Of a stretch of 64,000 nt of DNA, positions 24,744-40,365 are shown in pieces. How positions within the stretch are numbered: position 1 is the first letter of the stretch; every line of letters starts with the position of its first letter. The notes beneath the pieces are model-generated. The model did no database searches, was not told where the DNA came from, and saw only the letters and a list, made by a program, of their open reading frames with translations. The stretch lies in assembly GCA_001606155.1 (NCBI GenBank), contig LODT01000031.1:62001-126000 (forward strand), written 5' to 3'. The translations under genes were made by a program, and so were the position numbers. The DNA comes from Tieghemostelium lacteum. Its lineage: Eukaryota; Evosea; Eumycetozoa; Dictyosteliales; Raperosteliaceae.

Positions 24744-27700
24744 TTAATTTGAACAAGTTGGTTGATATTTACATTTTTGGGAGGTGGTTTGAGCTAGAAT
24801 ACAACGATGAGGAGATTTACATGTTATATCAGCACAGGTAATACAAGAATATTGTTTAACACATTTATAGATTTGATTTGATTGTTCTTTACAATCATAA
24901 CCTAAAGCACATGATAATTGAAAACATGATTCACCTTGATACACATCATTTTGATTTACACAGATATGAGAATTTGGTAAACATATTTGCCCTCTAACAC
25001 AAATGCAATCATTGATAACTGTGTTGTTTTGTTGAACATGAGTAGAGGGCGATGTTGTAGCAGTAGCTGTGATTAATGGGGGACTGCCAGTGGTTGTTGC
25101 ATGTACAGTGATTTGTGGAGTACTTGTTGAAACAGTACTTGTTGCAGTACTTGTTGAAACAGTACCTGTTGCTGTACCTGTTATTGCAGTACCTGTTATT
25201 GCAGTACCTGTTATTGCAGTACTTGTTATTGCAGTACTTGTTGTAGAGTTTGAAGTGACAGGTGGTGTATTTGTTGTAGTAGTAACTGTAACTGGTTCAG
25301 AGGATGTTGTGTTTGTGGTTGGTGATGTAGCAGTAGCAGTGACTGGTGATGTAGCAGTGACTGGTGATGTTGCAGTAGCAGTGACTGGTGATGTTGCAGT
25401 AGCAGTGACTAGTGATGTGGCAGTAGCAGTGACTGGTGATGTTGCAGTAGCAGTAGCTGGTGATGTTGCAGTAGCAGTGACTGGTGATGTAGCAGTAACA
25501 GTGACTGGTGATGTAGCAGTGACTGGTGATGTAGCAGTAGCAGTGACTAGTGATGTGGCAGTAGCAGTGACTGGTGATGTTGCAGTAGCAGTAGCTGATG
25601 ATGTAGCAGTGACTGGTGATGTAGCAGTAGCAGTGACTGGAGATGTAGCAGTAGCAGTAGCTGGTGATGTTGCAGTAGCAGTGACTGATGATGTAGCAGT
25701 GACTGGTGATGTTGCAGTAGCAGTAGCTGGTGATGTAGCAGTAGCCGTGACTGGTGATGTAGCAGTGACTGGTGATGTAGCAGTGGCTGATGATGTTGCT
25801 GTAGCAGTGGCTGGTGATGTTGCAGTAGCAGTGACTGGTGATGTAGCAGTGACTGGTGATGTAGCAGTGGCTGATGATGTTGCTGTAGCAGTGACTGGTG
25901 ATGTAGCAGTGACTGGTGATGTAGCAGTGACTGGTGATGTTGCTGTAGCAGTAGCTGTGACTGGTGATGTAGCAGTAGCGGTGACTGGAGATGTAGCAGT
26001 GACTGGAGATGTTGCAGTGACTGGAGATGTTGCAGTAGCAGTAGCTGGTGATGTAGCAGTAGCCGTGACTGGTGATGTAGCAGAGGCTGGTGATGTTGCA
26101 GTAGCAGTGACTGGTGATGTTGTGTTTATAGTTGGATTAGATGTAAATATTTTAATTGTATCATTAATTATATTTAAATAAGTAATTGAAATTGTAACAA
26201 TGGTTGAATTTCTTTTTGTTTTATACAAGATGTTGGATAGACTATGTAAAAAATTTGGATCTCTATTTGTATTAAATACTTGTAGCTCACCATTTGAAAT
26301 ACTAACAACATCAGATGATATATTGCTGGATGATGAAAATGATAATTGATCAGATGCATCAATACTATCCAAAACTTTAAAAGTAATGAATTGAACATTA
26401 CAAGCAGATGAAGTTGGATTAAAATTAGATTCTAAGAAACGATATTCACCATTAGAACTATATGCAATAGAGGTATTAATGATATTCAACGATGCTGAGG
26501 TTATAGTTTTTTCACCAAATAATATATAATTCTCACCATTATTAAAGTATATTATTAAATCTTGAATACCATCATTATTAAAATCAGTCCAAGTGGGAAA
26601 ATCAATTGCAGTGTTTAATATTGTAAAACCTCTACAATCACCAAATAAAGGAGATGTTTTGATATTCAAATCATAAACAGATGGTAATTTCATGGTGTTT
26701 CCAAATACACCCCAAGTATATCCAAGAGAATAAACATTACATGATATATCAGATATACCATCTGCATTAAAATCACCAACATTCATAGAAAAGCATATTT
26801 CTTGAGGTGAAGATACATCTCTGACCCATTTAACAACTTCAGAAGAATTACCACTGTTGATATCAAAATGAGATTCCCAAATTCCACCTCTTTTACCATA
26901 AATCATATAAATTGATTTTGAATCCTTACTTGCTACAGCCATATCTTGTAATCCATCACCATTGAAGTCACCAAAACCAGTCTGAAGTATATATTTAAAT
27001 TCATTAGCCTGTATATCCATTGTAAAACCATTAGTACCATTTAATACTGGATTGTATTGAGTTGGATATTTTTTTAAACCAAAAATAACATTACCAGTAC
27101 CATCCGAAAGTATTACCAAATCATCAATACCATCATTATTCAAATCTCCACAACCAAGATTTATAGTATTTCTCTGATTCATAATATGTCCATAATTTCC
27201 ACTTGATACATATTTAATATCAAATTTACCAGTACCAGCTTGGAATTGAAACTTTTTACCATTATCAAGTCCATAGAGTACAAAAACTTCTTCAATGGTA
27301 TTAAATATCAAATCATTTATACCATCTCCATTATGATCGCATAAAACTTGATAGGAAGCGTAGTGGGTCTGGAGAGAGCTAACATAATCAATTACAAATC
27401 CACCAAGTCCATCAAAAGTTGAAAAATCATTCTTAAATGGTCCTGCATTGCCATAAATTATTTTTAATTGACCGTTTGACACTCGAATTATAATTTCATC
27501 ATATCCATCATCATTTATATCTCCACATAGAAAGTAATTCCGAAGATCATTTTTAGTAATGTCAATACTGAAACCATTGATTCCGTCAATCATTGAAACT
27601 TTTAAAGGTCTCAGACCACCATATCTTGAGATATCACCAAAAAATACATATAATTTATTTGTTTGAAAATGAGATATTATAAAATCCTAATTTTATATTT

Positions 27701-27905
27701 TGGTTAGATTATATAAATATGTACAAAATTTAAATTAAAAACTTACTTGCTTACCATCACCATTAAAATCAAAACCTCCAATTTTATATTCAGAATAAAG
27801 TTCTAAACGATAACTATTTGTATCATTAAGTAAACTCTCTGATGTTGGGAAACCAATATTTATAGATATCTTTAGAATAAAAATTAGTAAGATGAATAAA
27901 TACAT
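24744..27905 (-). CDS. Secreted FG-GAP propeller protein with Thr/Ala stalk and Cys-rich tail, copy 1
   Basis: Exon 1 is 27905-27747 and exon 2 is 27686-24744, with a 60-nt intron, giving 1033 residues. A signal peptide (MYLFILLIFILKISINIG) is followed by seven FG-GAP calcium-loop motifs: FDFNGDGKQD, GDINDDGYDE, CDHNGDGIND, GDLNNDGIDD, GDFNGDGLQD, GDFNADGISD and TDFNNDGIQD. That is the number in an integrin-alpha beta-propeller. A small beta domain ends near 570. A stalk of SPVTA and TATA repeats (about 572-925) follows, then a tail with 14 Cys (CVRGQICLPNSHICV, SCALGYDC, CKSPHRC). No membrane anchor is seen, so it is probably extracellular or matrix. The intron splits the first calcium loop in all three copies. 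Confidence 0.88.
25310..26125. repeat. 18/24-nt coding minisatellite, stalk of copy 1
   Basis: Mixed 18-nt (GGTGATGTAGCAGTGACT type) and 24-nt units are repeated about 38 times and encode TSPVTA and TATSPVTA. They keep the frame because all units are multiples of three. The pattern also leaves a long valine-rich open frame on the plus strand, which is a shadow. Confidence 0.9.
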
Positions 27906-28015
27906 CTTTTATGAAAGAAAGAATAAATAAAGAGAATTTTTGAAGAGAATAGTGTTAAGTTTGTTGTTTATAAAATGTGTTTGAAAAGTGTGTGATTAAA
28001 TTTTTAAAAAACACA
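27906..28015 (-). promoter_or_regulatory. Conserved upstream region of FG-GAP copy 1
   Basis: The plus-strand text GAAGAGAATAGTGTTAA, then AAAATGTGTTTGAAAAG and GTGATTAAATTTT, recurs before copies 2 (36256-36365) and 3 (39635-39745) with few changes. The copies therefore were duplicated with their promoters and are probably regulated alike. Confidence 0.6.
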
Positions 28016-28090
28016 TATTAATTAATTGTTCACAAAACTATAGATTATCATTTTAAATCACACAAAAAATTTTAAATCATAGGTCATTTA

Positions 28091-28825
28091 CTACCCTTTT
28101 TCTTTTAATTTTTTAATAATGTGAAAATTTTGGGAGGTGGATTGAACTAGAATACAACGATGAGGAGATTTACATGTTATATCAGCACAGGTAATACAAG
28201 AATATTGTTTAACACATTTATAGATTTGATTTGATTTTTCAATACAATCATAACCTAAAGCACATGATAATTGAAAACATGATTCACCTTGATACACATC
28301 ATTTTGATTTACACAGATATGAGAATTTGGTAAACATATTTGCCCTCTAACACAAATGCAATCATTGATAACTGTGTTGTTTTGTTGAACATGAGTAGAT
28401 GGCGATGTTGTAGTGGCTGTGATTAATGGTTGGATACCAGTTGCAGTAGTGGTGACAGGTGGTTGAGTTCCAGTGGTTGTTGTAGTACCTGTTGTTGCAG
28501 TACTTGTTGTTGTACCTGTTGTTGCAGTACTTGTTGTTGTAGTACCTGTTGTTGCAGTACCTATTGTTGTTGCATTACTTGTTGTAGTAGCAGTTATTGG
28601 TGAGGTACCTGTTGTTGTATTGGTTGGGGTTGGTACACAATTCTTGATGATATCATCCTCTGGATATTCACAAATGTTATTGTTCAATCCAAATATTTTG
28701 AGAATAAAGAATTGAGGAGCTCCAAGACCCAATGTTACTGCACCTTTTTGACAAATAAAAATTCCAATTTATGAGGATTGCTGTTTGGGTCTTTTGAAAT
28801 ATTGAAATCTGCATGGAAGCCATCC
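28091..28825 (-). pseudogene. Truncated FG-GAP/PA14 paralogue relic
   Basis: On the minus strand this starts inside a PA14 domain. It matches the end of the PA14 domain of copy 3 (KDPNSNPHKLD region, then FILKIFGLNNNICEYPEDD). It continues through a Thr-rich stalk and a Cys-rich tail. The signal peptide, propeller and first part of PA14 are absent. The far end also differs: the final KCKYQPTCSN is replaced by an unrelated basic end. The 642-nt frame that remains (28732-28091) is open, so the damage is recent or the sequence still varies in frame. There is no plausible start, so I treat it as a relic. Confidence 0.7.
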
Positions 28826-28887
28826 TCAATATACAATCAGTTTTATAATAAAAAAAAAAAAATAATTTATCTAGAATTGCATGATAA

Positions 28888-28923
28888 TTTAGAAAAGTTT
28901 TCTAAACTTTAGATCCGATGTGA
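28888..28923. repeat. 36-nt duplicated element, copy B
   Basis: It is identical to 24519-24554, including the near-palindrome. It lies just beyond the broken 5' side of the 28091-28825 relic, so it marks a rearrangement joint. Confidence 0.85.
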
Positions 28924-28995
28924 ATTTGGGAATTTATTGAATACCACCAATGTATGGTGGTTTTAAAAACCATAATATTTTCCAATTCAAATTGA

Positions 28996-30545
28996 CTAAA
29001 AATGATCAATAAGAAAATCGTAGTGGATAGGGTGAGGGAGATTGGCTTTTGGAATTAATTCAGTATAATTAGTGCTAAATCTCAACAGTTGTGAATTTGA
29101 TAGTGTCTCTTTTAAACTTTCAAAATATTGAGGTGATGGGAGTGGTGGTTCTGTTATTTTAGGCAAGGAGAGGGATCTTATTGTTTTGTTATTATTGATA
29201 ATGTTTAAGAAGATTTCATAGATACCTTCTGTGTATATATCATATGATGGGAAATACAGAGCTGTAATAGTTTGATTGTTTATAATTTCATTTTCCAGTT
29301 TTTCTAGACAGTTTTCAGCCTGTACATAGAGAGTGGTAATGGTAGGATGTTGAAGTTTCAGAATTTCTTTATACAAGTAATTATTATTACAATCCATATT
29401 CAAACATGTGAGGGTTTTGTTCTTGTTAATACTGGATACCAGTGTATCAATCTCTGTATTATTTAAATCTACCTTAAAGATAGTTAAAGATGTAAATGGT
29501 AGATTTAAATCTATCAAATCAGAAAGGTATTCAAAATTTCTTTGGACTAGTCCTACCTTGAGTTCTCTGATATTCACACTATGGAATCTCTTTATAGATT
29601 CACAAACTGACTTTGTTGGAATGTGAATTGAAATTGTTCGCAAAGAGGATACACAATTCCAAGATTCCACTAACCTATTTGAATCTCCAGTTTCACCATA
29701 CAAAAATTTTAATTTTTGGTTTATGGTGACTAAAGATGGTGGTAGAGTACCTGAAATATTAGATACACTAAGTTTAGTTAGATTGGGATGATTCAACATT
29801 TCAAAAAATGAATGAGTAGTGGTTGTATAGTTTAAAGTCGATATTCTTAAACTCTCCATTTCCTCTATATTTCTAATGACCTGAAAGAGTTTATCATAGT
29901 TTTCCATTAACCCATACCCACAGGGTGTAGATGAAAGATTTAATGATTTAGGCTTAATTTCATTAACCATTGTAATAATATCGTCAATTGATATTCTAAC
30001 ATTCACCAATTTAATCTTTTTTAAATTTTTAAATTGTCTGATAGTATTCAATAGGTATACAGAGGTCAATGCAAGTGTTTCAATCTGTTCAAATGATTGC
30101 ATACTTGAAATTGAATCTATATAGTTTTCAAATTTTCTATCACTATTTCTAAAACCAAAACCTAATTTCTTTTATAGATTTTAGTTTTAAGTCAATATCT
30201 CAATTTCAATGTAATAATAAATACCTTACAAAATGTGATTTTATTAATATGACGATGTTTTAATAGATTAAATGCATCATAGACGTTATGGTCATTTATA
30301 AACAACATCATATAGATATTTGTTATATCTCTGTCTAATAGTATATTTATTCTTTTTATCATTCTAAAATCCTTTACTTCACCAAAATCCAATCGAATCT
30401 TTGGTAATATTGTAGACCTCCATTCTCTAGATACTAATGATACCTTCTTTAAAAGTGAAAATAAATTAATTTGATATTTTATATTGGATGATATAATGTT
30501 TAATATCTGAATAATTAAATAATTTGGTATTATTTTATTTGTCAT
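28996..30545 (-). CDS. F-box/LRR family protein A
   Basis: Exon 1 is 30545-30225 and exon 2 is 30168-28996, with a 56-nt intron (GTATTT...AAAAG) in phase 0, giving 497 residues. The join reads ITFCK|KLGFGFRNSD and lines up with the neighbouring paralogue. The F-box-like N-terminus is IPNYLIIQILNIISSNI...FSLLKKVSLVSREWRSTILPKI. LRR-like repeats follow (SLNMDCNN type and LTKLSVSNISGTLP). The shared motif LKPKSLNLSSTPCGYG (about 160) recurs in the next two genes. It is a probable SCF receptor; the target is unknown. Confidence 0.82.
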
Positions 30546-30612
30546 TTACAATCACAAAATCAATTAAAAAAAAAATAAAAAAAACTAGTTGGGGAGAATA
30601 ATACAAATTTAT

Positions 30613-32178
30613 TTAAAGGTGGTCAATTAAAGCATCATAAAACAAAGGAAAATCATAGTATCCTATTCTCTTATCCTTTTGTCGATATCCACTCATTTTA
30701 ATTTTTAAAAGTTGTGGACTATTGGAGATTACCTTTTTTAATTTTTCATATTGAGTTTCATTGAGCACTTGAGATTCTGTAGGTGATGGAAATTCAACAT
30801 TTATCAGTGTCTTATTATGTTTGAGAATTTTTAAAATTGCTTTGAAACTACTGTCAAATTCCATTGGTCGAGTTCTAATTGAAATTGCTGAAAATGTAGT
30901 ATTTTCAGAAATCTCTTTTACATAATCTTCAATAGTAGAGGAATTGGTGTTTAAGGTTAAATGATCATAATCTTTATCAGTAATTTTGAGAAATTCTTTC
31001 AAAAACTCTGGTTCCTCATTTGAAAATTTAAATGATGTGATGGTCTGATTGGATTTTATACTCTTTAGTAGGGGTTCATAGTTTGTGTTGGTTGAAATGG
31101 GTGAAGAAATATTTAGCATTTTGAATGATAGATTTTTTTGATCTAACAGATCAATAAAAACCTTTAGGTCATCTACTTTATCTATATCCAGTTTCTGTAG
31201 ATTTACACTATGAAACTTTTTAATACAATCAAGTGTTTGTTGATTGAGTAAATCAATTCGTAGGGATTTTAGAGATGATTGGCAATCCCAAGCATCTACA
31301 ATTAAATTGGTACTGTCTATATCACTATAGAGCTTTTTCAATTTACTATTTCTAATGACTAAAGGGTTTGGCATTTCTCCCTTTAGATTGGTAACTGAGA
31401 GAATGGTAAGACTTGGATGATGTAACATATCCACAAAGGATTTATTAGTAGTTACCAGAAAGTAATTAAATACTTCAAAACTCTCTATGGTATCAATCTC
31501 TCTAATCACATTAAAGAGTCTATCAAAATTTTGATCTGAAATACCATATCCATAGGGTGTAGATTGAAGTGTTAGTGTTTTCGGTTTAATCTGCTTAACC
31601 ATTTCAATAATAGGGTCCAATTGAATTCTAAGACTACTAAGATCAATACTAGTAAGTTTTTTGAATGCAGAGAGGTGCTCTATTAGATTAACAGAAATTA
31701 TATTTATAGTTTCAATATCTCTAAATGATTGATAGTTTTTTATGGTTTCCATAAATTTTTGATAAGATGTTTTATCTTCAATATATCCTCCTAACCCTAA
31801 AGTGTGTATTGGTTTATAGTGATCTGGTGGAGACCATTCAATTTTATCCATATGAAGTTTCAAACTGTCAAAAGTAACTTGACTACTTTTAGCATTCAAT
31901 AGAAGTGACATTACTTCATCTGATTGATCTTGAATGTATAGATCAATAGAAAGATTGACAAAATCTCTTTGTAACAGTTTATCAATTCTCCTCATAATCT
32001 CTTCATCTCTAACACAATGAAATTTAATAAAAATCCTTGGTAAGATAACATCTTTCCATTCCCTAGATACCAATGATACTTTTTGAATTAAAGAAAATAC
32101 ATTATAGTTGTTTTTTATATTAAATGATACTATATTTAAAATATCAATAATTAAATAATTTGGAATCCTTGTACACAT
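30613..32178 (-). CDS. F-box/LRR family protein B
   Basis: A single exon of 521 residues with ATG start. The F-box-like region is IPNYLIIDILNIVSFNI...FSLIQKVSLVSREWKDVILPRI. The family motif IKPKTLTLQSTPYGYG and LRR-like repeats follow. It lies 67 nt from protein A and 70 nt from protein C, all on the minus strand, as expected from recent tandem duplication. Unlike A it has no intron at the site after the first ~107 residues, although the sequence around it aligns. Confidence 0.85.
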   Translation of the reverse strand: MCTRIPNYLIIDILNIVSFNIKNNYNVFSLIQKVSLVSREWKDVILPRIFIKFHCVRDEEIMRRIDKLLQRDFVNLSIDLYIQDQSDEVMSLLLNAKSSQVTFDSLKLHMDKIEWSPPDHYKPIHTLGLGGYIEDKTSYQKFMETIKNYQSFRDIETINIISVNLIEHLSAFKKLTSIDLSSLRIQLDPIIEMVKQIKPKTLTLQSTPYGYGISDQNFDRLFNVIREIDTIESFEVFNYFLVTTNKSFVDMLHHPSLTILSVTNLKGEMPNPLVIRNSKLKKLYSDIDSTNLIVDAWDCQSSLKSLRIDLLNQQTLDCIKKFHSVNLQKLDIDKVDDLKVFIDLLDQKNLSFKMLNISSPISTNTNYEPLLKSIKSNQTITSFKFSNEEPEFLKEFLKITDKDYDHLTLNTNSSTIEDYVKEISENTTFSAISIRTRPMEFDSSFKAILKILKHNKTLINVEFPSPTESQVLNETQYEKLKKVISNSPQLLKIKMSGYRQKDKRIGYYDFPLFYDALIDHL

Positions 32179-32248
32179 GTAAAAAAAAATTAATAAAAAA
32201 AAAACTATTATTAGGGAAAGCTATCAAATAATCAAATTTATATAAATT

Positions 32249-33816
32249 TTATTTTCTATCATCTATTAGTCTTTTATAGAATAATGGATATTTGATTGGT
32301 TTTGTAAAGGATGTTTGGGGGAAACCAGACATGTGAATGGTTCTCCATTGAGGTGATTGTGATAATGCATTATCTAAACTATCTAATTGATTTGGTGACA
32401 GTTGTTCATGTACTATAGGTTGTGGAAAGTTAATATGTAACAAAGTTTTATTATTAGCTAAAATAGAGATTATAGATTGAAAACCAGAACCATTATTAGT
32501 GAATTTAAAGATTATAGATAGACTTCTTAGTGACTTATTATTAATGATGTCTTGTTCGAATTCCTCTAGAGTAGTCTCGTGAGGATAGTCCATTGTGAAG
32601 TCTATGAGCGTTGGGTGATCTAGACGTAGAATTTCTTTAAATACTTCATGATTATCATCAGCTAATTTTAATGATGTTAAATTATTGTTTAATTTTAGAC
32701 TTTTAACTAACATTTCTGGTATTGATTTATCATGACCGCAAAACAAGGTTGATAACTTTTTCAAAGATAAATTAGAAGCAATCAAATCGCACAGCACTGA
32801 AAAATCAAATCTAGTAATTACCAGGTTTTTTAGATTCTTGTTATGATAGGCTATTAGGTTATCAACTGTTTTCTTTGTTAATAGATTTACATTTATAGTC
32901 TTTAGATTGGATATACATTGCCAGTAATCTGATATGTTATAGTTAGCTTGGTCATAATAGATTCTTTTCAGTACTGTGTTTCTGATTTCAAATGTAGGTA
33001 ATTCATCTGGTAAATTTGAAATCAATGATAGTTTAGTGATAGTTGGATGTTGGAGTATTTCAATAAATGAAGTCGCTGTGAATTCCATAAAGTAATTAAA
33101 GATTTGAAATGATGTGATGAAATGACACTTCATGACCTCTTTAATAAGACTATCATAATTGGTGTCATCATCATTATTATAGGGTGTAGATTGCAGTTTT
33201 AGTGATTGCGGTTTAATACTATAAATTAAATCTATAATTTTGTCCATTGTAATTGTAAAATTATTAAGACTTATATGCTTTAGGTTCCTAAAACAATCAA
33301 TGCAATTCAAAAGACAATGAGATAAATGAAGTATTTCAATATTGTGAAGTGATTTAAAACCTTTAATCAAATCAACAATCTGTTGCTGATTTTGATCACT
33401 TACTGTAGGTCCACAAACAATTCCCAGTTCTTTTACATATTTAAAATTGTCAGTTAATCTTTCCATTAAGTCTAAAGTCATATAATTAAATCTTATTACA
33501 CCAAAGTTTATATTACTGATATTAGGGTGATTAAATAAACTAATTGACCTATCTGCTGAGAATTAATACATAATATAAATAGAGACAATTTTGTCAAACC
33601 TCTATTCAATAGATTATCAATAGCTCTATAAAAGAATCTATCTATAGGAGTTTTTCTTCCAAAATCTATGTGTAATCTAGGTAATATACTGTCTTTCCAT
33701 TCTCTTGATACTAATGAAATAGTTTCAATCAAAGAGAAATTATTAATAGGGGATCGTATTGTTGAAAACAATATATTTAAAATATCGACTATCACATAAT
33801 TCGGTAACAACATCAT
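32249..33816 (-). CDS. F-box/LRR family protein C, with a frame break or small intron
   Basis: The N-terminus (LPNYVIVDILNILFSTI...FSLIETISLVSREWKDSILPRL) and the C-terminus (family motif IKPQSLKLQSTPYN, then LRR-like repeats) lie in two frames that change near 33555-33600. A 44-nt GT...AG intron at 33599-33556 would join them into 507 residues. It would, however, remove LTKLSLFILCINS, which aligns with the conserved stretch of A and B. The other reading is a one-base loss near 33556-33569 in a dying gene or an assembly error. The span as a whole is certainly one gene. Confidence 0.65.
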
Positions 33817-33847
33817 GACAATATTGCAAAATCCACGTTTTTTATTT

Positions 33848-36255
33848 TTAATTTGAACAAGTTGGTTGATATTTACATTTTTGGGAGGTGTTTAGAACTA
33901 GAATACAACGATAAGGAGATGTACATGTTATATCAGCACAGGTAATACAGTAGTCTTGTTTAACACATTTATAGATTTGATTTGTTTTTTCTATACAACG
34001 ATAACCTAAAGCACATGATAATTGAAAACATGATTCACCTTGATACACATCAAATTGATTTACACAGATATGAGAATTTGGTAAACAAATTTGTCCTCTA
34101 ACACAAATACAATCATTATTAACTGTGTTGTTTTGTTGAACTTGAGTAGAGGGCGATGTTGTTGCAATAGCGGTGACAGGTGGTTTATTAGCAGTGGTTG
34201 TTGCAGTGGTTGTGATTGGTGGAGTACTTGTTGAAACAGTACCTGTTGTTGCAGTACCTGTTGTTGCAGTACCTGTTGTTGCAGTACCTGTTGTTGCAGT
34301 ACCTGTTGTTGCAGCACCTGTTGTTGCAGTACCTGTTGTTGCAGCACCTGTTGTTGCAGTACCTGTTGTTGCAGTACCTGTTGTAGCAGTACCTGTTGTT
34401 GCAGTACCTGTTGTTTCAGTACCTGTTGTTGCAGTACTTGTTGTTATAGGAACAGTAGCTGGTTTGGCGGATGTTGTGTTTATAGTTGGATTAGATATAA
34501 ATATTTTAATTGTATCATTAATTATATTTAAATATGTAATTGAAATTGTAACAAAGGACGAATTTCTATTTGTTTTATACAAGACGTTTGATAGACTATG
34601 TAAAAAATTTGGATCTCTATTTGTATTAAATACTTGTAACTCACTATTTGAAATACTAACAACATCAGATGATATATTGCTAGATGATGAAAATGATAAT
34701 TGATCAGATGCATCAATACTATCCAAAACTTTAAAAGTAATGAATTGAACATTACAATTTCCAGATGAATTTGGATTAAAATTAGATTCTAAGAAACGAG
34801 ATTCACCATTGGAATTAATAGAGGTATTAATTATATTCAACGATGCTGAGGTTATAGTTTTTTCACCAAATAATATATAATTCTCACCATTATTAAAGTA
34901 TATTATTAAATCTTGAACACCATCATTATTAAAATCAGTCCAAGTGGAAAAATCAATAGCAGTGTTTAATATTATAAAACCTCTACAATCACCAAATAAA
35001 GGAGATGTTTTGATATTCAAATCATAAACAGATGGTAATTTCATTGTGGTCCCAAATACTCCCCAAGTATATTCAAGAGAATAAACATTACATGATATAT
35101 CAGATATACCATCTCCATTAAAATCACCAACATACATAGATAAACATATTTCTTGAGGTGAAGAAACATCTCTGACCCATTTAACAACTTCAGAAGAGTT
35201 TCCACTGCTGATATCAAAATGAGATTCCCAAATTCCACCTTTTTTACCATATATCATATAAATTGATTTTGAATCCTTACTTGCTACAGCCATATCTTGT
35301 AATCCATCACCATTGAAGTCACCAAAACCACTTTGAAGTATATATTTGTTTTCATTAGCCTGTATATCCATTGTAAAACCATTTGTACCATTTAATACTG
35401 GCTTATATTCAGCATATTTATATGTTTTTAAACCAAAAATAACATTACCAATGCCATCCGAAAGAATTACCAAATCATCAATACCATCATTATTCAAATC
35501 TCCACAGCCAAGATTTATAGATTTTCTATAATTCATAATATGTCCATAGTTTCCACTTGATACATAGTTAATATTAAAATTACCAGCTTGGATTGGAAAC
35601 TTTTTACCCTTACCAAGTCCATAGAGAACAAAAACATCTTCATTGGTATTAAAAATCAAATCTTTTATACCATCTCCATTAAAATCACATAAAACTTGAT
35701 AGGAAGCGTAGTGGGTCTGGCTAGCACTAACATAATCAACCACAAATCCACCAATTCCATCAAAAGTTGAAAAATCATTCTTAAATGGTCCTGCATGGCC
35801 ATAAATTATTTTTAATTGGCCGTTTGACACTCGAATTATAATTTCATCATATCCATCATCATTTATATCTCCACATAGAAAGTAATTCCGAAGATCATTT
35901 TTAGTAATGGCAATACTGAAACCATTAATTCCGTCAATCATTGAAACTTTTAAAGGTCTCTGTCCACCATATCTTGAGATATCACCAAAAATACATATAG
36001 TTTATTTGTTTGAAAATCTGATATGATAAAATCCTAATTTTATATTTTGGTTAGATTATTTATGTACACCATATAAATTTCAAATTAAAAACTTACTTGT
36101 TTACCATCACCATTAAAATCAAAACCTCCAGTTTTAAATTCAGAATTAAGTTCTAAACGATAACTATTAGTATCATTAAGTAAATTCTCTGAAGATGGGA
36201 AAGCAATATTTATAGATATCTTTAAAATAATAATTAGTAAGATGAATATATACAT
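33848..36255 (-). CDS. Secreted FG-GAP propeller protein, copy 2 (one-base frame break)
   Basis: Exon 1 is 36255-36097 (signal peptide MYIFILLIIILKISINIA, first calcium loop) and exon 2 is 36033-33848. The layout is the same as copy 1, but the stalk is a 15-nt repeat encoding ATTGT units, with the Cys-rich tail after it. At about 35987-35991 the run reads CCAAAAATAC where copies 1 and 3 have one more A. Exon 2 is therefore one base short, and the frame from the signal peptide ends a few codons later. An inner ATG (MIDGINGFSI) opens the rest, but without a signal peptide. It is either a young pseudogene or a homopolymer read error; the remaining 697 codons are intact. Confidence 0.75.
34215..34450. 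repeat. 15-nt coding minisatellite, stalk of copy 2
   Basis: About fourteen units of GTTGTTGCAGTACCT type encode ATTGT pentapeptides on the minus strand. The unit length and encoded peptide differ from the stalk of copy 1, so the repeat was replaced or expanded independently. Confidence 0.9.
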
Positions 36256-36562
36256 CTTTTATGAATAAATAATAAACAGAATTTTTGAAGAGAATAGTGT
36301 TAAAATTGTGGTTTAAATAAAATGTGTTTGAAAAGAGGGTGATTAAATTTTACAAAATCATTATTAATTAATTATTCACACAAAGCTAATTGCATTATCA
36401 TTTTTTTTTAAATCACAAGAAATTTTCAAACATAACTCCAGTATATTTTAATGTGAAAAATGTAATAGGACCAAATATTTAAATCAGAGTTTAATTAATT
36501 GCTGAATGGATGGTTTTGAGAAACCAAATTAAAGATAGATAGATCTGAAGTTTATTATTATT
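36256..36562. promoter_or_regulatory. Upstream region of FG-GAP copy 2
   Basis: The first ~110 nt match the upstream regions of copies 1 and 3. The remainder, up to the end of copy 3, is AT-rich with no gene seen. Confidence 0.5.
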
Positions 36563-39500
36563 TTAATTTGAACAAGTTGGTTGATATTTACATTTTTGGG
36601 AGGTGGATTGAACTAGAATACAACGATGAGGAGATTTACATGTTATATCAGCACAGGTAATACAAGAATATTGTTTAACACATTTATAGATTTGATTTGA
36701 TTTTTCAATACAATCATAACCTAAAGCACATGATAATTGAAAACATGATTCACCTTGATACACATCATATTCATTTACACATATATGAGAATTTGGTAAA
36801 CATATTTGTCCTCTAACACAAATACAATCATTGTTAACTGTGTTGTTTTGTTGAACATGAGTAGATGGCGATGTTGTAGTGGCAGTGATTAATGGTTGGA
36901 TACCAGTTGCAGTAGTTGTGACAGTTGGTTGAGTACCAGTGGTTGTTGTGGTAGCTGTTGTTGCAGTACTTGTTGTAGGAGTACTTGTTGTAGCAGTACT
37001 TGTTTTTGCACTACCAGTTGTTGTAGTACTTGTTGTTGCAGTAGCTGTTGTAGCAGTACCTGTTGTAGCAGTACTTGTTGTAGAAGTAGCAGTTATTGGT
37101 GAGGTAGCTGTTGTTGTAGTGGTTGGGGTTGGTACACAATTCTTGATGATATCATCCTCTGGATATTCACAAATATTTTTGTTCAATCCAAATATTTTAA
37201 GAATAAAGAATTGAGAACGTCCAGGACCCAATGTCACTGCACCTTTTTGACAAATAAATATATCCAATTTGTGTGGATTACTGTTTGGATCTTTTGAAAT
37301 ATTGAAATCTGCATTCCTTTTAAAGTTGGAACGATCGATAGAGTCCATAACCAATTGGTTGTCCATGAATGCTGACATTTCATAATTGGTTCCAACGAAT
37401 GAAATTCCATTTCTTTCAGTTGTGTTGGCACAATACCAAAGTCTCATAACCATACACCAATTGTAGTTTGAGAATTCTCCTTCTTTTCCATATCCATAAT
37501 TATCGATTATTTTTAATCCATATTCAGTTGATCCGACAAAGTTAAAGCTACCATCAGAATCAGAACGAGTAAAAAGTGAATAGAAGTCTACTTCATCAGA
37601 AATATATTTTCCAAATGATTTGTTGAATCTGTTTGAATAGGTTTGAGAACTCTCTATCCAAACCTTTTCAGTTGCATGGATTGGAGTTGTCATATTCAAT
37701 TTTGGAAGATAACAATTGTCAGCTGTCAATTGTGGTGCTGTGAAACCTCTCAATCCCATTCCACTGGTGACATGATTCTGTTCAAGATTGAAATCAGTTT
37801 CATTCTTCAAATGATCAATGAAATACGATGGTGCTCTAAATGGAAGCCAGGATGTTGTGTTTATGCTTGGATTAGCTGTAAATATTTTAATTGTATCATT
37901 AATTATATTTAAATATGTAATTGAAATTGTAACAATGGTTGAATTTCTTTTTGTTTTATACAAAATGTTGGACAGACTTTGTAAAAAATTTGGATCTCTA
38001 TTTGTATTAAATACTTGTAGCTCACTATTTGAAATACTAACAACATCAGATGATATATTGCTAGATGATGAAAATGATAATTGATCCAGTACATCAATAC
38101 TATCCAAGACTTTAAATATAATGAATTGAACATTACAAGCAGATGAAGTTGGATTAAAATTAGATTCTAAGAAAAGATATTCACCATTGGATTTATAGGC
38201 AATAGAGGTATCAATGATATTCAAAGATGCTGACATTATAGTTTTTTGACCAAATAATATATAATTTATACCATTTAAAAAGTATACTATTACATCTAGT
38301 ATACCATCATTATTAAAATCAATCCAAGTGGACCAAATAACTTTTGTATTTAATATTATAAAACCTCTACAATCACCAAATAAAGGAGATGTTTTGATAT
38401 TCAAATCATAAACAGATGGTAATTTAATTGTGGTTCCATATACTCCCCAAGTATATCCAGGAGAATTAACATTACATGATAAATCAGATATACCATCTCC
38501 ATTAATATCACCAACATACATAGATTTGCATATTTCTTGAGGTGAAGAAACATCTCTGACCCATTTAACAACTTCAGAAGAGTTTCCACTGCTGATATCA
38601 AAATGAGATTCCCAAATTCTACCTTTTTTACCATAAATCATATAAATTGAATTTGAATCCTGATTAGCTACTGCCATATCTTGTAATCCATCACCATTGA
38701 AGTCACCAAAACCACTCTGAAGTATATATTTGAAATCATTAGCTTTAATATCCATTGTAAAACCATTAGTACCATTTAGTACTGGATTGTATTTAGTTGG
38801 ATAAATTTTTAAACCAAAAATAACTTTACCAATAACATTCGAAAGTATTACCAAATCATCAATATTATCATTATTCAAATCTCCACAACCAAAATTTATA
38901 GATCTTCTCTGATTCATAATATGTCCGTATGTTCCATTTGATACAAAGTTAATATCAAATTTTCCAGAATTGGTTGGAAACTTTTTACCATTATCAAGTC
39001 CATAGAGAACAAAAACTTCGTCTTCGGTATTAAATATCAAATCTTTTATACCATCTCCATTATGATCGCATAAAACTTGATAGGCAGCGTATTCGGTCTC
39101 CAGAGTATTAGTATAATCAATTATAAATCCCTCAATTCCATCAAAATTAGAAAAATCATTCTTAAATGGTCCTGCATTGCCATAAATTATTTTTAATTGA
39201 CCGTTTTTCACACGAATTATAATTTCATCATATCCATCATTATTTATATCTCCAGATAGAGGGTAATTCTGAAGGTCTCTTTTAGTAATGGCAATACTGA
39301 ACCCATTGATTCCATCAATCATTGAAGCTTTTAAAGGTCTCTTACCACCATATCTTGAGAGATCACCAAAAAATACATATTGTTTTTTTGTTTGAAAATC
39401 TGATATGATAAAATCCTAATTTATTATTTATGTTAGTTTATTTATACACTATATAATTTCAAATTAAAAACTTACTTGTTTACCATCACCATTAAAATCA

Positions 39501-39634
39501 AAACCTCCAGTTTTATATTCAGAATTAAAATCTAAACTATAACTATTAGTATCATTCAGTAAACTCTCTGATGTTGGGAAACCAATATTTATAGATATCT
39601 TTAGAAAAAAAATTAGTAAGAGAACTAAATACAT
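36563..39634 (-). CDS. Secreted FG-GAP propeller protein with PA14 (fibro-slime type) domain, copy 3
   Basis: Exon 1 is 39634-39476 and exon 2 is 39415-36563, giving 1003 residues, intact. There is a signal peptide (MYLVLLLIFFLKISINIG) and seven FG-GAP calcium loops, one weakened to CDHNGDGIKD and another GDLNNDNIDD. At about 575-795 sits a PA14 domain of the kind called fibro-slime in the dictyostelid prespore-cell-inducing-factor (Psi) proteins (APSYFIDHLKNETDFNLEQ, DEVDFYSLFTRSD, HKLDIFICQKGAVTLGPGRS). Copies 1 and 2 lack this domain. A short Thr-rich stalk and the shared Cys-rich tail end the protein. PA14 domains usually bind sugars. It is secreted and has no anchor. Confidence 0.88.
36930..37110. 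repeat. 15-nt coding repeat, stalk of copy 3
   Basis: Degenerate GTTGTAGCAGTACTT-type units encode ATTST/ATTGT pentapeptides on the minus strand. The stalk is shorter than in copies 1 and 2. Confidence 0.8.
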
Positions 39635-39940
39635 CTTTTATGAAAGAATAAATAAATAATAAAAAGTAATTTTGAAGTGAATAGTGTTAAATTTATTGTT
39701 TACATAAAATGTGTATAAAAAGTGTGTTATAAAATTTTACAAAAAAATATAAAAAATCTATAGATTACTTTTTTTTATATAAATCACACAAGAATTTACC
39801 ACCATTGCTTCTGTAGATTTTACATCTTTTTATTATTTAATGTGATAAATGTAGTAAGACCAAATATTTCAGTTTAGTAAATCAGAGTTAATTAATCCTA
39901 AATTATTTTGAGAAATTAAATAAACATTGTTTTTATTTTT
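39635..39940. promoter_or_regulatory. Upstream region of FG-GAP copy 3
   Basis: The first ~110 nt are the third copy of the conserved upstream block. The rest is AT-rich with no gene seen. Confidence 0.5.
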
Positions 39941-39944
39941 ATAA

Positions 39945-40365
39945 TTTAAATAAGTTGATATTTACATATTTGGGAGGTGTTAGGAACTAGAATACAACGA
40001 TAAATCTGTATAGGAATACAAGAATCTTGTTTAATAAATTTATATATTTGATTGTTCTATAACCTAAAGCATATAAATATTAAAAAAATGATTCACCTTG
40101 ATACCCATCAAATTGATTAACCAGATATGAGAATTTGATACTTATATTTTCACGCTGTATTTTGCAAAATAAAAAAAAAAGTGATTACTTCAATTTAGCG
40201 ACTAATAAGAATGATCAACTAAGAGGTAATTTTCAGTGTTTTCCAAATGTTTTGATACCTCTCAATCCCATTCCACCTTCATGCTTATGTTCAAGAATGA
40301 TATCAGTTTCATTCATCAAATGATCAATGAAATAAGATGGTGCTATGAATGGAAGCCTCAATAAA
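39945..40365 (-). pseudogene. Decayed FG-GAP/PA14 paralogue relic
   Basis: Two islands of similarity remain. On the plus strand, 39945-40140 resembles the region encoding the Cys-rich tail (TTGGGAGGTG, TAGAATACAACGAT, GATTCACCTTGATAC), and 40245-40365 resembles the start of the PA14 domain of copy 3 (CTCTCAATCCCATTCCA, AAATGATCAATGAAATA). They are in the expected order on the minus strand, with the propeller, stalk and most of PA14 lost. No usable frame remains. Confidence 0.65.

Follow-up and report, generated by a model that had tools for sequence, protein, structure and literature searches.

A secreted-looking FG-GAP propeller family in Tieghemostelium lacteum varies on one predicted face and may form a recognition repertoire

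In a 64,000-nucleotide stretch of the Tieghemostelium lacteum genome (contig C26:62001-126000, hereafter the window), three tandem genes (copies 1 to 3) encode a hydrophobic N-terminus, a propeller-type head with seven calcium (Ca) loops, a repeat-rich stalk and a Cys-rich tail, raising the question of what use an amoeba has for such a protein in many copies. We propose a diversified, matrix-held recognition repertoire, a reading that we are evenly inclined to accept and to doubt. Secreted modular proteins would carry a Ca-stabilised, seven-bladed propeller of the FG-GAP/VCBS type as binding head and a variable Thr/Ser/Pro-rich stalk as spacer, joined in one lineage by a PA14-like domain, while the Cys-rich tail, of a type found on other matrix-type proteins, would probably hold them in the extracellular matrix or sheath. 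Selection on amino-acid changes would have diversified one propeller face, that opposite the Ca loops, copy by copy in the main branch (20 genes), and this would make the family a repertoire of different binders on one scaffold.

Searching copy 3 against its own genome (an assembly of 23.33 Mb in 43 contigs) returned at least 67 matches, with 48 of 148 candidates scored. The gene set analysed here has 33 members, 31 modelled genes and two more used in open frames, and divides into 20 genes 71-91% identical to copy 3 (clade A), 12 genes 38-42% identical (clade B) and one very large gene whose propeller is 35% identical. Further family fragments in the genome lie outside this set. The close genes number at least 20, which supports the reading of a family with many copies. 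A propeller tree of 33 rows gives clade A a support of 100/100 and contains two sister pairs that involve window copies: copies 1 and 2 (99/97), and copy 3 with a C31 gene (100/98). Clade A genes are spread over eleven contigs, some as tandem pairs, and 15 of the 20 are intact from start to tail; the others are copy 2, the truncated L015_1862 and L022, L017, in which the start of exon 1 is out of frame, and L020_570. A family made up mainly of pseudogenes was rejected because 15 of the 20 close genes are open and omega (the ratio of nonsynonymous to synonymous change) is 0.35-0.60 outside the variable loops described below.

Sequence entropy in clade A shows two peaks per blade, at -13 to -4 and +11 to +19 relative to the first Asp of the Ca loop. 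The variance of this offset profile is 0.324 versus 0.081 (SD 0.024) for random anchors, and none of 5000 random sets reached it; the test used 14 of the 15 intact close genes, L010_1706 being dropped because its seventh loop was not recognised. Clade B peaks are broader and not as high, and with 12 of its genes the observed variance was likewise reached by 0 of 5000 random sets. Blades of four antiparallel strands have their 4-1 and 2-3 loops on one face and their 1-2 and 3-4 loops on the other. Since the Ca loop is the A-B (1-2) loop, as described for the DxDxDG motif of such propellers (PMC8023676), one variable window covers the 4-1 loop and the beginning of strand 1, the other the 2-3 loop and the end of strand 2. 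Mean entropy over 20 rows is 1.57 in the 4-1 loops and 1.32 in the 2-3 loops, 0.20 in the Ca loops and 0.46 in the 3-4 loops, and each variable loop has 17-20 distinct sequences among the 18-20 genes scored. Judged by motif register, variation is thus concentrated on one topological face of the propeller, opposite the Ca loops. For integrin alpha chains, one paper puts a 41 loop close to the ligand pocket on the top face and assigns a 34 loop to the bottom (PMC4563375), and another describes upper-surface loops as building the pocket (PMC5076510). The sequence-only reading had placed its emphasis on variation of the spacer; the spacer does vary, but the strongest variation lies in the head, in the 4-1 and 2-3 loops. 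Copy 3 differs preferentially in the variable windows from copy 1 (p 1.8e-5), copy 2 (p 0.0024) and its C31 sister (p 3.1e-4). N-glycosylation motifs are not enriched in these windows (18 in 133 sites versus 77 in 298, summed over 20 rows). Shuffling of loops by gene conversion was rejected as the main cause of the variation, 3 of 162 loop segments being near-identical to a non-sister and at the same time distant from the sister; of these three, one is a gap artefact of the frameshifted copy, and in another the donor-like gene is a close cousin.

For the analysis of selection, sites were not to be chosen by their own variability, so the six other blades supplied the loop offsets for each blade (86 codons in total). 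Across seven independent sister pairs loop omega was 1.41 (95% interval 1.04-1.95), with 1.80 (1.15-3.10) for the 2-3 loops; elsewhere in these pairs it was 0.60 in the rest of the propeller, 0.35 in the Ca loops and 0.38 after the propeller. Tree-based codon models were fitted to 18 clade A genes, leaving out L015 and L022. Under MGK+F3X4, loop omega was 1.53, with a log-likelihood (lnL) of -3179.8 versus -3186.6 at omega 1 (twice the difference, 13.4), and omega outside the loops was 0.54 in the rest of the propeller and 0.48 in the post-propeller region. Plain structural windows (133 codons) gave an omega of 1.34 and an lnL of -4416.4 versus -4420.8 (twice the difference, 8.8). Neutral simulations under two AT-rich mutation schemes had means of 0.91 and 0.93 and a maximum of 1.18, and 0 of 80 reached 1.53. 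Codon runs with +G4 were set aside, as their likelihoods fell below those of runs without +G4, pointing to a fitting failure. Synonymous divergence (dS) between sister genes was 0.20 in the loops, 0.12 in the rest and 0.054 in the Ca loops; the higher loop dS lowers loop omega. Among the possible causes of this gradient is gene conversion acting on conserved tracts.

These results have to be weighed against the idea that the proteins are ordinary structural or adhesive matrix components, a lineage-specific expansion without a recognition repertoire whose top loops drift under relaxed constraint because exposed loops face no fixed partner. Several observations count in that direction, or at least against a diversified binding face. 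Under GY+F3X4, loop omega is 1.04, not different from 1, although this model fits worse by 94 lnL units (-3273.8). By the NG86 method, the neutral expectation is 0.94-1.17, to be compared with the observed 1.41, and in the sister pairs the 4-1 loops alone have an omega of 1.20 (0.81-1.88). Loop omega in clade B is 1.02 (8 genes) or 0.38 (4 genes), and the entropy variance of the 8-gene set was reached by 18 of 5000 random sets. Copies 1 and 2 differ from each other without an excess in the top windows (Fisher p 0.61), 5 of the 20 close genes are broken, and the placement of the variation on one face rests on topology and motif register because the structure model has a pLDDT of 28.5. Lineage-specific expansions are moreover described as common in dictyostelids (PMC8535579). 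Relaxed drift is opposed by the MG model together with the neutral simulations, which place the clade A loops above neutrality, and by the conservation of the 3-4 loops on the other face, and we regard it as fairly unlikely.

Returning to the recognition repertoire, secretion is suggested by the hydrophobic N-terminus, and the tail would anchor the proteins in the matrix, the stalk presumably being glycosylated. The variable face would bind variable ligands, and glycans or proteins on the surfaces of bacteria or other cells are the most plausible of these. Immune and incompatibility families offer known examples of diversified scaffolds. One special case is that the heads are lectin-like and recognise glycans on bacterial or prey surfaces, as opsonins or defence lectins. 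The Psathyrella velutina lectin, which interacts with monosaccharides, is a propeller of seven blades and carries the same Ca motif (PMC3123361, PMC8023676), and a within-genome repertoire would suit many different ligands, but Trp is depleted in the variable sites (0.2% versus 0.9%), and we think this version unlikely. A second special case, in which the heads would serve self/non-self or kin recognition during aggregation and take over the part of TgrB1/TgrC1, would fit a diversified extracellular face and a published table in which tgrB1 is confined to group 4 and tgrC1 to D. discoideum (Table 3 of PMC4931340), but the observed diversity is among paralogs of one genome and no membrane anchor was seen in copies 1 and 3, the two scanned, and we hold it highly improbable.

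In its fullest form the proposal is more doubtful than in outline, and we put it forward tentatively: germline-encoded, secreted and matrix-held propeller binders with a ligand face under positive selection would form a hitherto unrecognised recognition system, for microbes or for self/non-self, in an amoeba lacking TgrB1/TgrC1, and a shared tail type would display PA14, Dicty_CTDC and CAP heads in the same matrix. If so, a social amoeba would be using a diversified FG-GAP propeller face as a recognition repertoire, and group 3 dictyostelids, which by the same table lack the D. discoideum Tgr system, would gain candidate genes for microbe or kin recognition. Among the matches listed in the open-access literature there was neither a secreted FG-GAP recognition repertoire nor a description of a dictyostelid FG-GAP family. 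FG-GAP terms are absent from the available text of a D. discoideum and D. purpureum comparison (PMC3188802), and the D. lacteum counts published in PMC4931340 are for PA14, Dicty_CTDC, FOLN and TIG proteins, not FG-GAP. Dictyostelids are known to have a class of lineage-specific expansions that show signals of positive selection, and this family may be among them (PMC8535579).

At the locus itself, the three genes and both relics lie on the minus strand of the window:

27905..24744, minus strand: copy 1, open gene, 1033 amino acids (exon 1 27905-27747, intron 27746-27687, exon 2 27686-24744)
36255..33848, minus strand: copy 2, frame-broken gene (exon 1 36255-36097, intron 36096-36034, exon 2 36033-33848)
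39634..36563, minus strand: copy 3, open gene, 1003 amino acids (exon 1 39634-39476, intron 39475-39416, exon 2 39415-36563)
about 28829-28091, minus strand: relic 1, the end of a PA14-like domain, a stalk and a tail with 12 of 14 Cys
about 40365-39900, minus strand: relic 2, the start of a PA14-like domain and a decayed tail

The count of three genes and two relics made from the letters alone was confirmed, as three tandem two-exon genes of which one is frameshifted. In copies 1 and 3, exon 1 has 53 codons and encodes the hydrophobic start and the first Ca loop, and a 60-nucleotide GT-AG intron in phase 0 follows it; exon 2 encodes six further Ca loops, the stalk and the tail, and copy 2 has the same plan. 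Near the start of exon 2, the frame of copy 2 is broken at a T run (near 35990) that lacks one base present in copies 1 and 3. A sequencing error may be the cause, since the presumed source is a published assembly that used 454 reads (PMC4931340). Copies 1 and 3 begin with a hydrophobic stretch that we read, on hydrophobicity, as a signal peptide, and after residue 35 neither has a 19-residue stretch as hydrophobic as that peptide (maximum 1.25 versus 2.24 in copy 1 and 1.53 versus 2.19 in copy 3). The claim that a membrane anchor is absent was accordingly upheld for these two copies, and so was the shared plan of signal peptide (by hydrophobicity), seven Ca loops, repeat stalk and 14-Cys tail with differing middle parts. 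Between copies 1 and 2, window positions 28996-33891 of the minus strand read as about three tandem leucine-rich-repeat-like genes, with a VSREW motif near the start of three frames.

The assignment of the head to the FG-GAP type comes from the Pfam models PF13517 and PF01839, both above cut-off in all three window copies, and the genome holds at least 126 FG-GAP_3 matches at E 0.01; NCBIfam matches of the propeller all fell below cut-off. Of 31 spliced models across the genome, 28 have seven Ca loops by regular expression; the other three are L009 (whose fourth loop, DLNNDDIDD, the expression missed), L010_1706 and the truncated L015. In copy 3 the seven loops are spaced 59-65 residues apart, loop 1 lying across the exon junction:

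38216..39415, minus strand: copy 3 propeller, exon 2 part
39250-39224, 39067-39041, 38881-38855, 38704-38678, 38509-38483 and 38320-38294, minus strand: copy 3 Ca loops 2 to 7
37871..38215, minus strand: copy 3 post-propeller region, about 115 amino acids, conserved, without a family assignment

Seven FG-GAP repeats thus point to a seven-bladed propeller fold. An AlphaFold2 model of the exon 2 part, built on three rows (the three window copies), reached a pLDDT of 28.5 and a pTM of 0.19. By eye, clade A has lost much of the FG and GAP motif, which in integrins is described as running over the beginning of strand A and the last part of strand B (PMC8023676). Prokaryotic relatives are 21-35% identical in the best 80 of at least 101 confirmed loci; among those listed, the best have 28-32% identity over residues 1-414, the propeller, and nearly all stop near its end, although a few extend to about residue 445 and one to 497. 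The roughly 115 residues that follow the propeller are conserved in clade A (omega 0.38-0.48) and may resemble a cadherin/CSPG-like sandwich.

The part between propeller and tail differs among the copies, and its elements in the window are as follows, with repeat periods from TRF:

25320-26120, minus strand: copy 1 stalk minisatellite of TSPVTATA-type repeats, periods 24/42/66 (units of 18 and 24 nucleotides)
34237-34445, minus strand: copy 2 stalk, 15 nucleotides x 13.9
36956-37088, minus strand: copy 3 stalk, 15 nucleotides x 8.9
37130..37849, minus strand: copy 3 PA14-like (fibro-slime type) domain

The repeats agree with those described in the sequence-only reading, except that copy 3 also has a 15-nucleotide array. 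Spacers run from 71 to 380 amino acids in 17 of the 18 close genes listed, two of these lengths including the PA14-like domain. The description of the proteins as modular and secreted-looking, with a variable spacer and a middle domain common to other architectures, was supported.

The PA14 label itself stood in part. The Pfam PA14 model matched none of 18 middle domains at E up to 1, and NCBIfam gave no match either; the same Pfam model finds 20 other places in the genome, 18 of them over cut-off. Profile comparison backs the label: against three PSF-type PA14 domains of the same genome, hhalign gave the middle domain a probability of 90.5 and an E of 1.4e-6 over 137 columns, the propeller as control giving 0.2 and 0.34. 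The middle domain is therefore supported as a remote relative of the PA14/fibro-slime group, as far as profiles can indicate. Against PDB profiles its best E was 0.081, at chance level; a model of the middle domain only had a pLDDT of 42.6, and none of 305 Foldseek matches from it (E up to 10) reached E 0.001.

In the domain tree, copy 3 and its C31 sister fall together (100/99) with a relic on C2 and with domains one and two of an array gene that lies where contig C35 begins; no propeller was seen upstream of that array gene. Because the domain of copy 3 groups with the array gene while its propeller belongs to clade A, the domain was exchanged between different gene builds, in a way compatible with either direction, gain by the copy 3 lineage or loss in the other 18 close genes. 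The drawn propeller tree places copy 3 and its sister as the earliest branch of clade A. The middle parts had also been called interchangeable, but free exchange is not seen, since a PA14-like domain accompanies an intact close propeller in this one sister pair only and otherwise occurs in relics, among them one on C38 in which the end of a propeller runs into the beginning of such a domain. The giant gene (L024 and L025, C26:695459-714265) encodes at least 6,227 residues, with a propeller, stalks and 17 PA14-like domains in a partly alternating A-B array, and reaches the contig end within stalk repeats. At C27:1-1739, a TSPVTATA stalk with a 14-Cys tail may be where a giant-type gene ends. 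A tandem cluster at C31:1509500-1530600 (L027 in part) has PA14-like domains, stalks and 14-Cys-type tails, with no propeller match.

The tails of the three window genes lie at their 3' ends:

24747..25013, minus strand: copy 1 14-Cys tail
33851..34117, minus strand: copy 2 14-Cys tail
36566..36832, minus strand: copy 3 14-Cys tail

In 27 of 28 modelled tails there are 14 Cys in one spacing pattern, 3 of its 13 gaps varying in length between branches, and the L013 tail has an extra Cys. Neither Pfam nor PDB gave the tail a significant match (best PDB E 0.14, at chance level). A clade B tail used as query hits 53 places in the genome at E 0.01, and six tail places outside propeller genes were examined out of a larger set. 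Among these, a C30 locus combines, by Pfam, PA14 and Dicty_CTDC with a related tail of 15 Cys, and two C24 loci have Dicty_CTDC alone, one tail with 15 Cys and the other interrupted by an in-frame stop. Two CAP proteins on C8 and C23 (L130 and L131) have a hydrophobic start, a Thr/Ser stalk and a shortened Cys tail with about 10 Cys. The sixth place is the C27 stalk and tail described above. With related tails on PA14+CTDC, CTDC and CAP proteins, head, stalk and tail thus recur in several combinations in this genome, and a Cys-rich tail type to which no Pfam family corresponds is found on extracellular proteins of several kinds.

Four known systems invite comparison. The N-terminal propeller of integrin alpha chains likewise has seven blades with D-x-[DN]-x-DG Ca loops, and integrin alpha-V chains give a weak profile match (best whole-sequence E 1.5e-3, no single stretch passing). 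Unlike integrin alpha, this family carries Ca loops in every one of its seven blades, variable top-face positions, and a stalk with a Cys tail; no transmembrane segment was seen in copies 1 and 3, and no integrin leg (thigh/calf) domain was matched by Pfam in the three window copies at E 0.1. Propellers of the VCBS/PVL type, comprising the prokaryotic VCBS group and the Psathyrella velutina lectin (PVL), belong to the same superfamily by motif, but the likeness to the prokaryotic group ends near the propeller end in nearly all loci listed. The dictyostelid PSF/psi matrix proteins (PA14 plus Dicty_CTDC) are alike in that the family's middle domain is probably a remote relative of their PA14 and one PA14+CTDC locus closes with the related 15-Cys tail; they differ in that the GDDDVWV core, present in the three PSF domains compared, is missing from the middle domain, and the family has a propeller head and no CTDC repeats. 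The hnwd proteins of Podospora are intracellular. Their WD repeats diversify through repeat instability (PMC2873952), whereas the blades here keep their order, only 3 of 162 loop segments being closer to a non-sister than to the sister; shared with this non-self recognition family is a propeller scaffold diversified within a gene family (PMC2873952).

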